From the NCBI GenBank assembly GCA_013214965.1, contig JABSRU010000023.1, positions 1 to 64,000 of the forward strand: DNA of 64,000 nucleotides, given 5' to 3'. Both the position numbers and the translations under genes were made by a program. Origin of the DNA: Gammaproteobacteria bacterium. Its GTDB lineage: Bacteria > Pseudomonadota > Gammaproteobacteria > Enterobacterales > Psychrobiaceae. The notes beneath the pieces are model-generated. The model made no database searches, was not told where the DNA came from, and saw only the letters and a program-made list of their open reading frames with translations. Shown piece after piece: positions 696-23,646 of the stretch (the stretch's first letter is position 1; each line of letters starts with the position of its first letter).

Positions 696-2413
696 TAGCT
701 GCGCTCCGATTTACTTAAATACATGTCGTTCATTGCACCATGTTTAATCAGCATTGGGTAAACATGCTCTGCTTCGTCTACCGCAATGTCCATCACGACT
801 AGGCGATCTTTCATCGCGAAACAACGCTCAAGGGCCGCCTCAAGTTCGTCAGGTTTATCCACTTTAATCCCAACATGGCCATAGGCTTCTGCTAGTTTGA
901 CAAAATCTGGCACTGAGTCCCAATAAGAATGAGAATGACGCCCTTTGTAAATCATGTCTTGCCATTGTTTAACCATACCCAATGAACGATTATTTAAGAT
1001 AATCACCTTAATTGGCAAGTCATATTGCATACAAGTCGAAAGCTCTTGAATGTTCATCTGGATTGAACCATCACCGGTAATACAAATAACCGTTTCATCT
1101 GGAAAGGCCATTTGCACGCCCATCGCCGCTGGTAAACCAAAGCCCATAGTGCCTAAGCCGCCAGAGTTAATCCAACGCCGAGGTTTGTCAAACGGGTAAT
1201 AAAGTGCGGCAAACATTTGATGCTGACCAACATCAGAACAAACATAAGCATCGCCATTCGTCGCTTGATACATCGCTGATATCACTTGCTGTGGCTTAAT
1301 CAACTTGTCATTGGTTTGGTAGCTTAGACATTCACGAGAGCGCCATTGTTCAATTTGTTGCCACCATTGCTCGATGTCCGGTTGATTAGGCGTTAAATGG
1401 TCATCATTGATCATTTGTAGCATGTCGTTAATTACATTTTCGCTGTAACCAACAATGGGAATATCGGCGTGCACGGTTTTTGAAATTGAGGTTGGGTCAA
1501 TATCAATATGAATAATCGTGGCGTCTGGGCAATATTTTTCGAGATTGTTGGTGGTACGATCATCAAAACGTACCCCAACAGCAAAGATAACATCACAGTG
1601 ATGCATTGCATTATTGGCTTCATAGGTGCCGTGCATGCCAAGCATACCAACAAACTGTTTATCAGTTGCTGGATATACACCAAGCCCCATTAGGGTATTG
1701 GTGATCGGGTAGTTTAATTGTTGAACCAGTTTTTTCAATAACTCAGGCGTTTTACCTGCAACTGCCCCGCCGCCGGCATAAACAATTGGTCGTTTCGCTT
1801 CAAGTAAGGTTTTAACCGCTTTACGAATTTGACGCTTGTGACCGTTTTTGGTCGGATTGTATGAGCGTAAACTGACCGAATCTGGATATTGATAAGGAAA
1901 CTTAAATTCAGGGTTGATAATGTCTTTTGGTAAATCCACCACAACCGGTCCTGGGCGACCAGTCGACGCAATATAATAGGCTTTCTTGATGGTCGCCGGA
2001 ATATCTTTAGGATCTTTAATTAAGAAACTGTGCTTAACGATTGGTCGTGACACACCGACCATATCGGTTTCCTGAAACGCATCTTCGCCAATATTTTGAG
2101 TCGCCACTTGGCCAGACAAAATAACCAGTGGAATTGAATCCATGTAGGCGGTCGCAATGCCGGTAATACAGTTGGTTGCACCAGGACCTGATGTCACCAA
2201 AATTGTACCAACATCACCCGTTGCACGGGCATAACCATCAGCCATGTGTACTGCCGCCTGTTCGTGGCGTACTAATACGTGTTCGACCGTCGATTGTTGA
2301 AATAAGGCATCATAAAGGTCCAAAACAGAACCGCCGGGGTAACCGTAAATTCGTTTAACCCCTTGGTCTTGTAAGGAACGGATAACCATTTCCGCACCAG
2401 AAATCATTTCCAT
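695..2413 (-). CDS. ilvI: Acetolactate synthase isozyme III, catalytic large subunit
   Basis: ThDP-dependent catalytic subunit condensing pyruvate with pyruvate or 2-oxobutyrate, the first common step of branched-chain amino acid synthesis. It follows E. coli IlvI closely: [12 protein letters not shown] near the start, the FGYPGG-equivalent YGYPGG, the catalytic Glu in [12 protein letters not shown], and the ThDP motif [10 protein letters not shown]...NNRSLGM near residues 440-480. An in-frame TTG at 2425 exists, but GGAG at 2421-2424 is the ribosome binding site for ATG 2413, which matches the family start MEM; this gives 572 residues. Forms an operon with ilvH. Confidence 0.96.
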
Positions 2414-14544: not shown

Positions 14545-15798
14545 ATGAAAGTATTAATTCTTGGATCGGGGGTCATCGGTGTCACAACGGCTTGGTATTT
14601 AGCGCAGGCAGGGCATGAGGTTACTGTGTTAGAACGCCAAAGCGATGTCGCTCTCGAAACCAGTTTTGCCAATGCGGGTCAAATTTCACCGGGGTATGCT
14701 AGCCCTTGGGCTGGACCGGGAGTACCATTGAAAGCAGTAAAATGGTTGCTCCAGGATTTGTCGCCATTACGGATTAACCCCTTAACCGATCCCGCGCTGT
14801 ACAAATGGATGTTCAAACTATTATTAAACTGCAATGAGAAAAGTTATCAGCGTAATAAATCAAGAATGCTTAGGCTCGCAGAATATAGCCGTGACAACTT
14901 AAAAACATTACGTCAGCAGTTAGCCCTTAACTATGATCAGCGTAGCCAAGGAACACTGCAAATTTTCCGACATCAAAAGCAACTTAAAAACGCAAATCAT
15001 GATATTGCGGCGTTAATCGCAAACGATATTCCCTATCAACAACTTAGCACTGCACAGTGTTTCGAGTATGAGCCGGCCCTGCTCGGCAGTGCTCATAAAA
15101 TTGTTGGCGGTTTGCGTCTACCCGGTGATGAAACCGGTGATTGTTATCAATTCACTCAGCAGTTAGCCCAGCAATGCCAGCTCATCGGGGTTAAATTTTT
15201 GTTTGATCATCAAATTAATAAGATAGTAAAAAACAACAACCGTATAACTTGTGTTGAGACCAGCCAAGGGGAATTTTGCAGTGACGCTTATGTAGTAGCA
15301 CTCGGCAGTTATTCGCCATTATTAGTCAAAGAACTCGGGATTTCATTACCCATTTATCCGGTCAAAGGCTATTCGTTAACCGCGCCAATTATTGATAGTG
15401 CCTTAGCACCGGTATCAACTGTAATGGATGAAACGTATAAAGTGGCGGTGACACGATTTGATGATCGTATTCGCGTTGGTGGCACGGCTGAATTAACGGG
15501 ATTTAATCTGAGTTTACCCCGTTCTCGCCATGCCAATGTTAATTATGTGATCAATGATTTATTTGCGGGAGCGGCAGATATGTCACAAGCCGAATATTGG
15601 ACGGGCTTGCGACCAATGACCCCCGATGGCACTCCTATTATCGGCGACACTGCGATTGAAAACCTATTTCTGAACACCGGCCATGGCACATTAGGTTGGA
15701 CCATGGCAACGGGCTCTGCAAAGTATCTCAGTGACATAATTTCAGGGGTCACTCCGGATATAGATACTGAGGGACTGAGCTTTAGTCGCTACAATTAG
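14545..15798 (+). CDS. dadA: D-amino acid dehydrogenase, small FAD subunit
   Basis: 417 residues, FAD-dependent membrane-associated dehydrogenase that oxidises D-alanine and other D-amino acids to 2-oxo acids, feeding the respiratory chain. Seen: the dinucleotide-binding GSGVIG at residues 7-12, TSFANAGQISPGYASPWAGPG near 40-60 typical of DadA, and the C-terminal GTLGWTMATGS. An upstream in-frame ATG at 14488 would add 19 residues ahead of the FAD motif; ATG 14545, with AAGG about 9 bp before it, fits the family. No dadX racemase follows. Its 3' end overlaps the convergent sitD-like gene by 17 bp. Confidence 0.93.
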   Translation: MKVLILGSGVIGVTTAWYLAQAGHEVTVLERQSDVALETSFANAGQISPGYASPWAGPGVPLKAVKWLLQDLSPLRINPLTDPALYKWMFKLLLNCNEKSYQRNKSRMLRLAEYSRDNLKTLRQQLALNYDQRSQGTLQIFRHQKQLKNANHDIAALIANDIPYQQLSTAQCFEYEPALLGSAHKIVGGLRLPGDETGDCYQFTQQLAQQCQLIGVKFLFDHQINKIVKNNNRITCVETSQGEFCSDAYVVALGSYSPLLVKELGISLPIYPVKGYSLTAPIIDSALAPVSTVMDETYKVAVTRFDDRIRVGGTAELTGFNLSLPRSRHANVNYVINDLFAGAADMSQAEYWTGLRPMTPDGTPIIGDTAIENLFLNTGHGTLGWTMATGSAKYLSDIISGVTPDIDTEGLSFSRYN

Positions 15799-16633
15799 AT
15801 CGGGTGATTCTGGCTAATTGCCACTGTTGATAACTAAAGACCACAATAAATGTGGCCGCCAGGAACATAATAATGGTTGGCGCCGGTGCACTATCAATAT
15901 AAAAGCTAATGAATACGCCACAAATTGAACTCGTCACCGAGATCAACAACGATAACAACGTCATGGTTTGAAACTTGCTGGTCAGTAAAAAGGCAATGGC
16001 TCCTGGCGCGATTAACATCGCAATCACTAAAATCATCCCGACGGCTTTAAGCGCCGCGACAATCGTTAACGACAAAATGGCGAGTAAACCATAATGGAGA
16101 AATCTCACTGGTAAACCAACGGCTTTGGCGTGCTGGTGGTCAAACACATACACCAGTAAATCTCGCCCTTTTACGATCATAAAAGCGAGCACTAATAAGG
16201 TAATGACCAACACTTGTAGCACATCATCCCAACTAACCCCAAGGACATCACCAAACAAGATGTGATCAAGATGAACCCCTGATTCAATCTTGGTCATTAA
16301 GACCAATCCGAATCCGAACATGCTGGAAAATACCACCCCCATAACGGTATCTTCTTTTAATCGACTGTGTTCCTTAATATATCCGGTGGTAATGGCACAA
16401 AACATCCCCGCCACAAATGCGCCTATAATATAGGGAATCGCAAACACATAGGCTAATACCACGCCGGGTAAAATAGAATGAGCAATCGCATCGCCCATGA
16501 GCGACCAGCCTTTAAGCACTAAAAAACACGACAATAATGCGGTTGGAATTGCCACTAACACCACAATAGCAAACGCTTGTTGCATAAAGGTAAAGGTGAA
16601 TGGCAGCCATAAACTATCGAGTAGCTGATTCAT
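15782..16633 (-). CDS. sitD: Mn/Fe-type ABC transporter permease (second)
   Basis: 283 residues, polytopic cluster A-I metal permease (ABC-3/ZnuB family) with about eight TM helices; the loop GWSLMGDAIAHSILPGVVLAY near residues 43-63 is the family signature. It should form a heterodimer with the preceding permease. Start overlaps the sitC-like gene by 20 bp. Last gene of the apparent sodN-sitABCD transcription unit, overlapping dadA tail to tail. Assignment to Mn/Fe rather than Zn rests on the binding protein's ligands and is inference. Confidence 0.9.
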   Translation of the reverse strand: MNQLLDSLWLPFTFTFMQQAFAIVVLVAIPTALLSCFLVLKGWSLMGDAIAHSILPGVVLAYVFAIPYIIGAFVAGMFCAITTGYIKEHSRLKEDTVMGVVFSSMFGFGLVLMTKIESGVHLDHILFGDVLGVSWDDVLQVLVITLLVLAFMIVKGRDLLVYVFDHQHAKAVGLPVRFLHYGLLAILSLTIVAALKAVGMILVIAMLIAPGAIAFLLTSKFQTMTLLSLLISVTSSICGVFISFYIDSAPAPTIIMFLAATFIVVFSYQQWQLARITRSNCSD

Positions 16634-17495
16634 TTAGCACTCCTTTCTTTAACGCCTGTTTTGCTTTGCGTTTAGTGGCAATTAAGCCGTGTTTGGGGGC
16701 TAAGATGAACACAGCCATAAAGATAGTTGCCTGCAACACCACAATAATACCACCGGTTGCACCGTCAATGAAAAAACTTAAATAAGCCCCAAACAACGAT
16801 GTTAAGGTGCCAATCATCACGCTATAGATAATGACAATTGGAAAGCGGTCACTGAGTAAATAAGCCGTTGCACCGGGTGTGACCACCATCGCGATCACCA
16901 AGAATGCGCCAACGGTTTGCATCGCGGCAACCGTTGAAGCACTGAGTAAGGTAAAAAAAAGTATTTTCAATTTATTGGGACTAAGACCAATACTCCGGGC
17001 ATGGTTCTCATCAAAAAAAACCACCATTAAATCGCGCCATTTCACCAATAATATCGCTAATGACACGCCACTAATAATAATCAGTTGTAGCGTATCGCTT
17101 GGGGTAATCGCTAACACATTACCTAGCACAATGGTTTGAATGTTAATTGAGGTCGGCGATAACGACACCATAAACAAGCCTAATCCAAAAAAAGAACTAA
17201 AAATCAAACCAATAATTGCATCTTCTTTTAGTTTAGAGCGTTGATTCAAAAATAACATCGTGGTTGCTGCTAAGCCGCCCGAAAAAAAAGCGCCGAGCGA
17301 AAAAGGCAAACCCAACATATAAGCACCAGCAACGCCCGGCACAATTGAGTGCGATAACGCGTCACCAATTAATGACCAGCCTTTTAGCATTAAGTAAGCC
17401 GATAAAAAAGCGCAAACACCGCCGACTAAGCCACTAATGAAAATTGCATTAACCATGTAGTTATATTGGAAAGGTAATAATAAAGTGTCAATCAT
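16614..17495 (-). CDS. sitC: Mn/Fe-type ABC transporter permease (first)
   Basis: 293 residues, same ABC-3 permease family as its neighbour, with the matching loop [21 protein letters not shown] near residues 39-60. Hydrophobic throughout, with a basic C-terminal tail ([18 protein letters not shown]). The two-permease arrangement is typical of SitABCD/TroABCD/MntABC systems and differs from single-permease ZnuABC. It overlaps the ATPase gene by 4 bp, so coupling is tight. Confidence 0.9.
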
Positions 17496-18343
17496 TTAGA
17501 ACTAGCCACTGCGGTCGAGTTGTCTTCACCATATAACACCACTGGCCGCTCATGATCTGAGAGCACCGTGACTTGTCGGCTATCGTCATCATCGTGAAGA
17601 TCTTTACCCGCCAACACAAAGTGACGTAGCACACCACCAAAGGCGAGTGCTAAATTTTCACGGGTAAACACTTCATTGGTTGGGCCCGCCGCCAAAATCG
17701 TTTGATTGATTAAAACCGTTCGGTCACAGAATTCTGGCACGCTACCAAGGTTGTGGGTCGAGACTAAAATAACTTTTCCCTGCTGACGAAGTTCCCGCAG
17801 CAAGGCCATGATTTGATCTTCCGTGGTCACATCAACCCCAGTAAAGGGTTCATCAAGCAGTATGACTTCGCTTTCTTGAGCCAACGCTCGGGCTAAAAAA
17901 ATTCGTTTCTTTTGACCGCCAGAAAGCTCACCAATTTGACGATGTCTAAACTCGCCCATATTAACCCGCTCAAGCGCTTGAGCAACCAGTAAATGATCTT
18001 TCTTCTTGGCCATTCGAAACATATTCATGTGACCATAACGACCCATCATCACCACATCTTCAACCAAAATCGGAAAATTCCAGTCAATCTCTTCACTTTG
18101 TGGCACATAGGCCACTAAGTTGTTTTTTAATGCTTGTTTGACCGATAGCCCCATGATTTCCACTGAGCCTTTCGCTAAGGATACAAACCCCATAATTGAC
18201 TTAAACATGGTGGACTTACCACTACCGTTCATGCCGACCAATGCCGTAATTGAACCTTGGGGCAGTGAAAAACTCGCATGACTTAACGCGCAATGGCCAT
18301 TGTGATAAGTGACGCTGATATCTTTAACTTCTAAACCAATCAT
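17492..18343 (-). CDS. sitB: Mn/Fe-type ABC transporter ATPase
   Basis: 283 residues. Walker [10 protein letters not shown] near residue 37, signature [16 protein letters not shown] near residue 140, Walker B VILLDEPF, and a H-loop in VSTHNLGSV. The C-terminal 35 residues beyond the ATPase core ([18 protein letters not shown]) include an acidic and His-containing stretch that could sense metal, which is speculative. Powers uptake through the two permeases and overlaps the binding-protein gene by one base. Confidence 0.93.
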
Positions 18344-19221
18344 TATTGAGTCAATCCTTGAACAATCGTGTGAAGTGTCACGGTCAATAAATCGATATAA
18401 GTCGGGACTTTGCCATTGGGGCCGCTTAACGAATCAACATATAACACTCCAGCATAGCGAGCACCCGTTTCCCGAGCAACTTGCTGAGCTGGTCGCGCTG
18501 ACACGGTGCTTTCGCTAAAAATAGCACCAATATTATGCTGTTTAATCTGATCAATGACCTGCCTAACTTGCTGTGGCGACCCCTGCGAGTCAGCATTAAT
18601 TGGCCATAAGTAGAGTTCTTTTAAATCAAAATCGTTAGTCAAATAGCTAAATGCGCCTTCGCTAGTCACGAGCCAGCGTTGTGCTGGCTCAAGTGCTGCT
18701 AATTGCTGCTTAAATGGCGCGACGGCCGCCAGTATTTGTGCGCGATAACGCTTGGCATTTTCATTATAAATAGCGCCATTGGCTGGGTCATATTTGACTA
18801 AGGCTTGTCTGATGTTCTCGACGTAAATCAACCCATTATTGGCCGACATCCAAGCGTGTGGATTAGGTCGTCCCGAATATCGCCCCTGTGATATTCCCAT
18901 CGGTGATACACCGTCAGACACCACAATCGATGGCACATCATGTAAATTCTTAAAAAATTTCTCAAACCATAATTCTAAATTTAAGCCATTATAGAGGATC
19001 AAGTCAGCACCTTGTGCCCGGCGGATATCACTGGGAGTCGCTTGATAATTATGAATTTCAGCATTAGGCTTGGTGATTGACTCAACAACAGCAACATCGC
19101 CAGCAACATTGCGTGCAATATCCGCGATAACAGTGAACGTTGTCACTATTTTAAATTTATGCTGATGGCTATGGGCAGACAGGCTAACAGTAACCATCAT
19201 CAAGATAAAAAAACGAAACAT
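18343..19221 (-). CDS. sitA: Periplasmic Mn/Fe-binding protein of the ABC transporter
   Basis: 293 residues with a Sec signal peptide ([18 protein letters not shown]) followed by a His-rich HSHQHK. Cluster A-I solute-binding fold. The four expected metal ligands are visible: His in [12 protein letters not shown], His in [10 protein letters not shown], Glu in [10 protein letters not shown], Asp in VLYVDSLS. The His-His-Glu-Asp set is the Mn/Fe pattern of SitA/MntC/PsaA rather than the His-rich Zn pattern. An upstream in-frame start (19272) would hide the signal peptide; ATG 19221 was chosen. It starts 13 bp after sodX. Confidence 0.93.
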
Positions 19222-19234
19222 ATTTAACCTATAT

Positions 19235-19534
19235 TTATACGGGAGGCTCAATGACAAAACAGACACGAGCAAGGATTTTTTGAGGTATCACCGCGCCAAT
19301 TTGCGCCATAGTAACGCTTTGCTTACTTTCGCCTCGCAGCCAGTAATTACCTTGTTCATCAACATGATCAATGGTTTTAATCATGTCACCATATTGAGCA
19401 TGGTGTACTTTAACCACTTGACCAGCGCTTAATGACTTCTCTCGAAACCAGCGGTTAGTAATCACAAAACTGCCAGCAGGAATACGGGGAGTCATGCTCA
19501 CTCCCCGTACACGGCTAATGCCAAATCCAAACAT
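19235..19534 (-). CDS. sodX: Nickel superoxide dismutase maturation peptidase (S24/S26-like)
   Basis: 99 residues, a minimal signal-peptidase-like domain: GVSMTPRIPAGS with nucleophile Ser13 and Lys53 in DMIKTIDHV as the general base. In Ni-SOD operons such a protease (SodX) removes the SodN propeptide so that the mature N-terminal His can bind nickel. There is no TM anchor, consistent with cytoplasmic processing. It begins 5 bp after the sodN stop codon; this neighbourhood makes the assignment strong. Confidence 0.93.
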   Translation of the reverse strand: MFGFGISRVRGVSMTPRIPAGSFVITNRWFREKSLSAGQVVKVHHAQYGDMIKTIDHVDEQGNYWLRGESKQSVTMAQIGAVIPQKILARVCFVIEPPV

Positions 19535-19539
19535 GAAAT

Positions 19540-20043
19540 TTACTTATCCAATTTTGGGTAAATAAGTTCTTGAGCTGGTGGATATGGTGAAATAGCTTTA
19601 TAAGTTGTTAATCCTTTACTTAACCAAAATATTTCAGCAAAGCGATTAACTTTATCGAGTAAATCAAGCGTCGCGTCTTTATCAATATTTTGTTTCGCTT
19701 TAGAAGCCACTAACATAATGCTGTGCGTTAACTGGTGCAGTTCAGGAAATTGATCCAGCTGAGGCTGTTTGATGTAATCACCCCATATGACGCGGATTTC
19801 TTCTTTCACTTTAAAGCCATGCTGTTCTTTTTCAGCCACTAAGCGTGAAAATTGTGCTTGGTCATTAAGGGTTAAAGACTCTTTAGCACCTAACTCTTCG
19901 AGTAAATCAACCATTCGGATCATCGTTAAAACGGCAATCTGCGCACTAATTGGATCGTAAATTTTACAAGGAATATCACAATGAGCGGCAACACTCGAGA
20001 ATGATAATTTTTTGTCTAAAGACGAGATTAGATTGAATAACAT
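19540..20043 (-). CDS. sodN: Nickel-containing superoxide dismutase precursor
   Basis: Converts superoxide to hydrogen peroxide and oxygen with a Ni centre. 167 residues: a 20-residue propeptide ending in SVAA, then the diagnostic nickel hook HCDIPCKIY (His21, Cys22, Cys26, Tyr29), then a four-helix bundle. A longer frame back to 20118 is possible but ATG 20043 gives the usual short, non-Sec propeptide, so cleavage should be by the adjacent SodX. The pairing sodN-sodX followed by a metal ABC transporter is in one apparent operon. Ni-SOD spares iron and manganese, fitting control by an iron-type operator. Confidence 0.97.
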   Translation of the reverse strand: MLFNLISSLDKKLSFSSVAAHCDIPCKIYDPISAQIAVLTMIRMVDLLEELGAKESLTLNDQAQFSRLVAEKEQHGFKVKEEIRVIWGDYIKQPQLDQFPELHQLTHSIMLVASKAKQNIDKDATLDLLDKVNRFAEIFWLSKGLTTYKAISPYPPAQELIYPKLDK

Positions 20044-20053
20044 GGTAAATTCC

Positions 20054-20260
20054 TTATTTTTTATTACGATGAGTTTGTTTATTGCCGAAAATTTTATAGG
20101 CAGCATATCCTGCTGCAATCGCCACTGGAGCCAACCACAACAAGTGAATCAAGTTAGCAGATTGAGCAGCATGATCATGTCCTGGGTGAGCCAAAACGGC
20201 CGGGGCAACTAGCGATAAACTCGCGATTGCACAGTTGAATTTAGTCATTATTTTTTTCAT
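20054..20260 (-). CDS. Small membrane protein with predicted N-terminal HPGHDH metal motif
   Basis: 68 residues: signal peptide ending VLA, then HPGHDHAAQS, a single TM helix (LLWLAPVAIAAGYAAYKIF) and a basic tail. Cleavage after VLA would leave a free N-terminal His plus two more His within six residues on the periplasmic side. The HPGH start recalls nickel permeases of the HupE/UreJ family, but the rest of those proteins is absent. AGGA lies 7 bp before ATG 20260. It sits 10 bp upstream of sodN, so a role in nickel capture or delivery is a reasonable but untested guess. Confidence 0.8.
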   Translation of the reverse strand: MKKIMTKFNCAIASLSLVAPAVLAHPGHDHAAQSANLIHLLWLAPVAIAAGYAAYKIFGNKQTHRNKK

Positions 20261-20281: not shown

Positions 20282-20710
20282 TTAATGAAGAGTTTGAGCC
20301 GGTGAAGTCAGCCAGTCTTTTGTGGCTTGCAATGCGTGATAACACTGTTCGCAAATTGGATGATTTTTGCTAAATTCAAGCAATGGCATTAAGGTGATTT
20401 TGATCGCCCGCATCGCCATGGCTTGTAGCTCATCAGAGATGGAATCATCTTGGGACAAGGCCAACATCCATTGATGAGGTAGGGTTAAATAACGTAAAGC
20501 GAGTTCACTGTCTCCCTGCTCTTCAAACAATGTCGATAAATTATGTAATCCGGCAATCCAGGCTAGGAGCAATTCAACATTATTACGATCCTCTTGCCAA
20601 TCCAGTTCAATTAGCGCCAGTGCTTTGTTGTAATATTGCTCAGCATCTAACCAAGCACACTGATCAAAACAATCATTACCCTCGCGCATTAACGTTTGCC
20701 AAATTTGCAT
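20282..20710 (-). CDS. TPR-like protein with CxxC, first gene of the sodN unit
   Basis: 142 residues. Helical repeats of TPR type (residues 10-40: FDQCAWLDAEQYYNKALALI, then AGLHNLSTLFEEQGDSELAL). Two cysteine pairs are present, CFDQC near residue 14 and HPICEQCYHA near 117. The Cys/His pairs could bind a metal or support disulfide chemistry. No signal peptide, so cytoplasmic. First gene behind the palindromic promoter and 21 bp from the HPGHDH gene. I do not recognise a characterised family; an assembly or scaffold factor for Ni-SOD or the transporter is speculation. Confidence 0.8.
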   Translation of the reverse strand: MQIWQTLMREGNDCFDQCAWLDAEQYYNKALALIELDWQEDRNNVELLLAWIAGLHNLSTLFEEQGDSELALRYLTLPHQWMLALSQDDSISDELQAMAMRAIKITLMPLLEFSKNHPICEQCYHALQATKDWLTSPAQTLH

Positions 20711-20727: not shown

Positions 20728-20767
20728 AATGATTCTTATTTATAAGTAAGAATCATTCGTATGTAAA
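20728..20767 (-). promoter_or_regulatory. Promoter of the sodN-sit unit with an overlapping Fur-family-like palindrome
   Basis: On the minus strand -35 TTTACA (20762-20767) and -10 TATAAA (20739-20744) are 17 bp apart. A 30-bp near-perfect palindrome (20728-20757) with arms AATGATTCTTA and TAAGAATCATT covers the -10 and most of the spacer, so a bound repressor would block polymerase. The arms resemble Fur boxes; a nickel-responsive Fur homologue (Nur) is the alternative. Confidence 0.7.
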
Positions 20768-23150: not shown

Positions 23151-23169
23151 AATGGAAATCATTATTATA
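23151..23169 (+). promoter_or_regulatory. Fur-like box upstream of pseudoazurin
   Basis: AATGGAAATCATTATTATA matches the Fur-type sequence AATGAGAATCATTCTCATT at about 14 of 19 positions, 34 bp before the pseudoazurin ATG and inside the likely promoter/leader region. Scored by eye only. Confidence 0.5.
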
Positions 23170-23202
23170 ATATTATTAACAATGACAATCTGGAGAAAAT
23201 AT

Positions 23203-23646
23203 ATGCTAAATCGTAGTACTATTGCTGGGGTCGCTCTGCTTATGTGTGCACCACTACTTAATGCCGCCGAACACACGGTAAAAATGATGACTTCTGGCGC
23301 TAATGGCCAAATTATGGTGATGGAACCGGGTTATTTAAAAATAGCTATGGGTGATACGGTTAATTTTGTGCCCTCTGATCCGAGTCACAATGCACAATCG
23401 ATGTCGATTCCTAAAGGCGCTGAAAATTTCACGACACCAATGGGTAAATCAGCAAAAGTCAGCTTTACTCAAGAAGGAGTCTATCTTTACAAATGCTTAC
23501 CCCATGTGCCACTAGGCATGGTTGGTGTGATCCAAGTTGGCAATGCGGTTAACCTCGAACAAACTAAGACTGATTTAGTTAAAATAAAATCATCGATTGC
23601 GATGAACAAAGACCGTATTGAGAAATACATGGCTCAAGTTAAATAA
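23203..23646 (+). CDS. Pseudoazurin-like blue copper protein
   Basis: 147 residues: Sec signal peptide (MLNRSTIAGVALLMCAPLLN to AA), then a cupredoxin domain. Type 1 copper ligands are visible: His62 in DPSHNAQS, and Cys98, His101 and Met106 in KCLPHVPLGM. The short spacing of the C-terminal ligands and KMMTSGANGQIMVMEPGYLK near the mature N-terminus match pseudoazurin, a periplasmic electron carrier to nitrite reductase or other copper enzymes. GGAG at 23192-23195 selects ATG 23203 over the in-frame ATG 23152. No denitrification genes are nearby. It is divergent from the TonB receptor. Confidence 0.94.
   Translation: MLNRSTIAGVALLMCAPLLNAAEHTVKMMTSGANGQIMVMEPGYLKIAMGDTVNFVPSDPSHNAQSMSIPKGAENFTTPMGKSAKVSFTQEGVYLYKCLPHVPLGMVGVIQVGNAVNLEQTKTDLVKIKSSIAMNKDRIEKYMAQVK

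Follow-up and report, generated by a model that had tools for sequence, protein, structure and literature searches.

To our knowledge, neither a nickel chaperone nor a dedicated importer has been described for the nickel superoxide dismutase (Ni-SOD) SodN. CbtB, the predicted small subunit of a cobalt uptake system, has one span with conserved histidines and accompanies CbtA. The HupE/UreJ permeases (PF04955) have about six spans; the HX5DH motif of their helix 1 is reportedly important for HupE transport, and a second essential motif lies in helix 4. The starts of HupE/UreJ carry the invariant elements AH, GH and HPxxGxDHL. In some proteins the Ang-1 and Ang-2 'anglerase' domains are fused to HupE, with a conserved His1 exposed by signal peptidase; these N-terminal His capture domains bind metal, and metal capture next to the membrane has been proposed for them (PMC12537917).

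A small membrane protein gene is indeed present beside sodN, as the initial annotation had stated, in the window, i.e. the whole 64,000-nucleotide stretch analysed here (Table 1). Its product reads MKKIMTKFNCAIASLSLVAPAVLA^HPGHDHAAQSANLIHLLWLAPVAIAAGYAAYKIFGNKQTHRNKK in the ORF list of the window, where ^ is the inferred cleavage point. The AxA pattern, together with the helices 3-22, 33-41 and 44-65 of the AlphaFold model, suggests that the signal peptide is cut before His25. The sodN start codon follows 10 nt past the end of the small gene, and AGGA-type ribosome-binding sites are found around it. Both genes belong to an operon-like run composed of the TPR protein, the small protein, sodN and the sodX-like protease, followed by an ABC transporter of the Mn/Fe/Zn type.

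Table 1. Coordinates and contexts of the features discussed; positions without a locus name refer to the window.
Feature	Position	Strand	Remarks
Metal ABC transporter, Mn/Fe/Zn type	15782..19272	(-)	ZnuA-type binding protein, ATPase, two permeases
ZnuA-type binding protein	18343-19230	(-)	predicted mature start HSHQHK; Moritella orthologues without such a start
sodX-like SodN maturation protease	19235..19534	(-)	TIGR02754 51.5 bits (cut-off of 63.25 not reached); consistent in position and in S24/S26 similarity
sodN, nickel superoxide dismutase	19540..20043	(-)	TIGR02753 199 bits, PF09055 161 bits; 20-residue propeptide before HCDIPC
Small N-His single-span protein gene	20054..20260	(-)	68 aa; mature form predicted to comprise residues 25-68 (HPGHDH...)
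Codon of H39, start of membrane helix	20144..20146	(-)	aligned with the first His of HupE HX5DH
Codons of predicted mature N-terminus HPGHDH	20171..20188	(-)	H25, H28, H30 invariant in alignment; cleavage predicted from AxA pattern
Start of predicted mature small protein, peptide HPGHDHAAQSAN			
TPR/DUF2753-like protein	20282..20710	(-)	C120, C123 and C-terminal H142 invariant
Inverted repeat AATGATTCTTATTTATAAGTAAGAATCATT	20728..20757	(.)	near-perfect; 18 nt 5' of TPR start codon
Pseudoazurin-like cupredoxin gene	23152-23646	(+)	near the locus; homologue near sodN in ~15/80 loci
Rhodanese-like ORF	L172:2348-2713		same contig, ~1.3 kb past window end; signal peptide, predicted mature start HSDHDH
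Small relatives after [NiFe] hydrogenase large subunit	L087, L167		Pfam/NCBIfam
Small relative after hypE	L090		Pfam/NCBIfam
Small relatives before ureD	L165, L166, L168, L170		Pfam/NCBIfam
Small relatives after ureG	L150, L164		order-level sample
Nickel-pincer cofactor operon, genome G091	L208:2465-6021		second LarC2-like ORF (43.4 bits, below cut-off) and small gene before larC-larE-larB
DUF6732 genes directly before CbiX	L156-L161, about 1501-1730		six genomes

Absence of the small gene beside other sodN genes had been named as an observation that would refute the proposed nickel role. From one scan of GTDB genomes for SodN, 80 loci were kept; in 59 of these a homologue immediately precedes sodN, usually at a gap of 1-26 nt. 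Most of the marine gammaproteobacteria surveyed thus have it beside sodN. These homologues share a signal peptide with AxA, the start H[P/S/A/E/D]GHDH (HxGHDH in nearly all), one span and a basic tail, and 57 of the 59 have Ala at position -1 of the cleavage motif. Beyond Met1, H25, H28 and H30 alone are invariant among 47 aligned sequences with a mean column identity of ~33%, while G27, D29, A24 and H39 are conserved at 90% or more. Pairwise dN/dS of close pairs of the small genes ranges from 0.05 to 0.48. Lys and Arg are absent from the 14-residue loop that follows the predicted cut (0/60 members) and the N- and C-terminal ends are basic, which fits an N-terminus in the periplasm and a tail in the cytoplasm. 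In the SodN tree, almost the entire gammaproteobacterial sodN clade has the small gene; it was lost in a few places (Oleispira/Marinobacterium, two Pseudomonadales MAGs and one Oceanospirillaceae), and the alphaproteobacterial sodN lineages are without it. The adjacent small gene is missing from 18 of 83 propeptide-type sodN loci, and no convincing copy was found elsewhere in the ten genomes searched that lack the canonical sodN-adjacent gene. At four deeper sodN loci (L069, L075, L097 and L098) other short ORFs occupy that position, with the predicted mature starts HDNGTFHF, HSLNSYHIH, HLTNSLFHLH and HEGNATFHYH, respectively.

The distribution of the small gene follows that of sodN closely. 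Among the 197 genomes of an order-level sample, 27 have a real sodN, and a strong, sodN-adjacent match to the small-protein profile (54-87 bits) was obtained in 24 of these 27 and in 0 of the 170 others (Fisher 7e-28), where the best matches were HupE N-termini or one 66-residue frame, at 34 bits or less. The ORF of the window is a real gene under selection, directly upstream of sodN; conservation, dN/dS and co-occurrence rule out a chance ORF. All 24 order-level genomes with a cytosolic SodN carry it, but none of the six genomes with an exported, signal-peptide SodN (three from the order sample and three from the class sample). Among genomes sampled irrespective of the small gene, it accompanies cytosolic but not exported SodN. 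This correlation, in which SodN lineage is a confounder, is what would be expected if the gene served nickel entry into the cytosol. In the exported Ni-SOD clade (L124-L126, L099-L101), to which no small gene is linked, the enzyme's own signal peptide ends directly before HCQ(I/V)PC, so that signal peptidase probably replaces SodX. The window SodN itself is most likely cytosolic, since its propeptide is short and contains lysine, and a SodX-like protease is encoded next to it. The direct feeding of SodN that was originally suggested is therefore unlikely, the small protein probably facing the periplasm, and a SodN-specific periplasmic chaperone is disfavoured, all the more as the exported SodN forms lack the small gene.

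Relatives of the small protein are found beside other nickel genes as well. When 369 genomes of the class were searched with a profile built from the sodN type alone, eight weaker, sub-threshold small-ORF matches covered a substantial part of the model, and seven of these eight lie beside other nickel genes, which were identified by Pfam/NCBIfam. With a broader combined profile, A3, run on the class genomes, 10 of 11 new small-ORF matches outside the seed were nickel-adjacent versus 1 of 20 controls, i.e. places from the same search, the lone positive being UreJ itself (Fisher p=2.6e-6); the A3 seed includes nickel-linked members, an objection from which the first test is free. The A3 inclusion rule was fixed after the hit list was known and before the contexts were known, and one match, L204, closely resembles a seed member. 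Four of the new matches precede ureD, one follows ureG, three are located at the hydrogenase large subunit, one of them between it and hypC, another lies between a LarC2-like ORF and larC-larE-larB, and L095, which starts with Arg instead of His, is upstream of sodN. The eleventh match, L210, is a protein of another kind, similar to DUF6488. Hence the nickel link, at first guessed for SodN, is wider and includes urease, hydrogenase and lar loci; nickel binding by these proteins is putative.

The resemblance to the start of HupE/UreJ, with the rest missing, was borne out by profile comparison. Indeed, hhalign of the sodN-type set with HupE gave 97.9% probability with the signal peptide included, and the mature parts only scored 37.8 over 31 columns, whereas the maximum of 100 column-permuted controls was 16.6. 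Like HupE/UreJ, the small protein has a signal peptide ending in AxA, a mature start H-x-G-H-x-x-H (within it the HupE-type AxA^H-x-G-H), a histidine opening helix 1 at the membrane entry, and nickel enzyme genes as neighbours. Unlike them, it and its homologues comprise 60-70 aa with one span and lack the helix-4 motif, and the sodN type keeps only the first His of HX5DH, the DH half being lost. The full HX5(D/E)H is kept in L205, L167, L087 and L090; in several hydrogenase-linked relatives the motif reads HLLTQPDH, HLLSSADH, HNLFHIEH and HYLSAPEH. Since neither several helices nor a second His/Glu motif are present in this protein of 68 aa, with one span after cleavage, it is not placed in HupE. 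In line with this, PF04955 did not match the window protein and hit only 2 of 47 members weakly (best E 0.01).

Comparison with the other described systems gave a similar picture of partial likeness. As in the anglerases, a conserved His stands directly behind the predicted signal peptide in the 47 sequences, but the small protein has a six-residue His motif on a free-standing single span, where the anglerases are folded domains, well over 100 residues long, that are joined to a permease. DUF6732 proteins (PF20506) share with it a signal peptide, an N-terminal His, further histidines and one span, but differ in His spacing (HIGHxxxxAGHDHW) and are linked to cobalt/B12, not nickel. Their genes directly precede CbiX, a member of the cobalt chelatase family, in each of the six genomes in which they were found (Pfam identified CbiX in two of them, and in the rest it was recognised from its sequence), and a precorrin-8X methylmutase gene follows CbiX in several cases. 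PF20506 matched 30 of the 47 members below threshold (best E 1.6e-6); the window protein, at 10.2 bits with a cut-off of 27, falls outside this family. It is possible that DUF6732 is the cobalt counterpart of the small protein. The likeness to CbtB, by description only, is that of a small one-span His protein tied to a metal pathway, although no CbtA-like partner was noticed near the small gene. The small protein scores below the cut-off of every Pfam and NCBIfam model, no match was present in plasmid records, and no paper on the one-span protein or on DUF6732 was found in the open-access literature. The claim of an undescribed type is accordingly supported, as no curated family covers the protein: it is new as a stand-alone one-span form, its principle being known from the HupE N-terminus and N-terminal-His metal capture.

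The operon neighbours provide candidate partners. In 34 sodN-linked orthologues of the TPR protein, C120, C123 and the C-terminal H142 (a CxxC and a terminal His) are invariant; its model is confident and TPR-like (pLDDT 92.5), with generic TPR matches only in a fold search. Judged by these residues, the TPR protein, whose gene also occurs at some sodN loci without the small protein, is a better candidate for a cytosolic SodN nickel chaperone than the small protein. The ABC transporter after sodX is an unproven candidate partner of the small protein; among the sodN loci compared, it occupies this position besides the window only in Moritella. A TonB-dependent receptor lies upstream on the same strand, with the inverted repeat between it and the operon. 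A fixed pairing of the small gene with the downstream ABC transporter, common only to Moritella, or with the TonB receptor was rejected. Likewise, a fixed pairing with HupE or NiCoT is contradicted by the window genome, in which HupE is absent and NicO gives just a weak match (29.8 bits), and by four sodN genomes (G406, G139, G442 and G486) with neither HupE nor NicO. As for regulation, the inverted repeat could be a Fur-type operator of the TPR-small-sodN-sodX operon, though it matches the Fur box at only 12/19 positions. About one third of the orthologous upstream regions contain 19-mers that resemble a Fur box at 15/19 positions or more, compared with 0.4% of random sequences, which suggests that iron controls the Ni-SOD operon through Fur.

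We propose that the small protein is a stand-alone periplasmic nickel-capture module similar to the HupE N-terminus, tethered to the inner membrane and aiding nickel entry for cytosolic nickel enzymes, a reading to which we give a probability of about 55%. Signal peptidase would cut behind VLA and leave a free N-terminal His1, whose amino group and imidazole, with His4 and His6, could bind Ni(II) in the periplasm. The single span would hold the chain in the inner membrane, the entry histidine H39 being the putative counterpart of the first His of HX5DH in helix 1 of HupE/UreJ. By concentrating nickel at the membrane, the protein could supply an importer, in the window genome possibly the ABC transporter after sodX, and the imported nickel would load cytosolic apo-SodN, perhaps via the TPR protein, which has CxxC and a His at its C-terminus. 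Small proteins like the one described here would also serve the urease, [NiFe] hydrogenase and nickel-pincer (Lar) loci.

Since no importer is constantly linked to the small gene among the loci compared, and some sodN genomes have neither HupE nor NicO, there is room for a self-assembling permease, in which an oligomer of this single-helix version of HupE would line a nickel path with its membrane-entry histidines. The homology of the mature N-terminus and helix start to HupE helix 1, the HX5(D/E)H retained by hydrogenase-linked members, and the location of urease-operon members after ureG, the position of UreJ in L086, are consistent with such a minimal permease. We consider it unlikely, however, because the part of HupE with the second essential motif is missing, the sodN type is without DH, and the span sequence is variable apart from H39.

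A membrane tether or sensor is another conceivable role: the outer histidines would sense nickel, and the tail would recruit or regulate the proteins of maturation (TPR, SodX, or UreG/Hyp). In its favour, the small gene keeps its place in the operon beside maturation genes, and nearly all members have a basic cytosolic tail. Yet this tail is poorly conserved compared with the invariant periplasmic histidines, and the same architecture occurs beside unrelated cytosolic partners, so that this function is improbable too. N-terminal His motifs bind Cu(II) (PMC12537917), and the pseudoazurin-like gene near the locus, like its homologues at other sodN loci, would suit a metal guard, a sink in the periplasm that takes up copper or surplus nickel and is induced together with the SOD operon. 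Such a role appears very improbable, since the relatives lie beside urease, hydrogenase and lar genes and not beside copper efflux genes, and stoichiometric binding by a 44-residue protein would be a poor defence.

Extending the nickel-capture reading, Ni-SOD, urease, [NiFe] hydrogenase and Lar may share an undescribed superfamily of one-span microproteins, each a detached HupE helix 1 that captures nickel with its free N-terminal His motif and acts as a subunit for nickel entry in general, and DUF6732 would be the cobalt counterpart; we advance this tentatively, at slightly under even odds. With a conserved capture protein and a TPR protein bearing CxxC and a C-terminal His in one operon, the nickel route to Ni-SOD becomes testable. 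Which SOD a marine bacterium uses depends on its supply of nickel and iron. Should the wider family prove real, a single type of short gene would mark the nickel loci of four enzyme systems and could aid the annotation of nickel metabolism in such bacteria.
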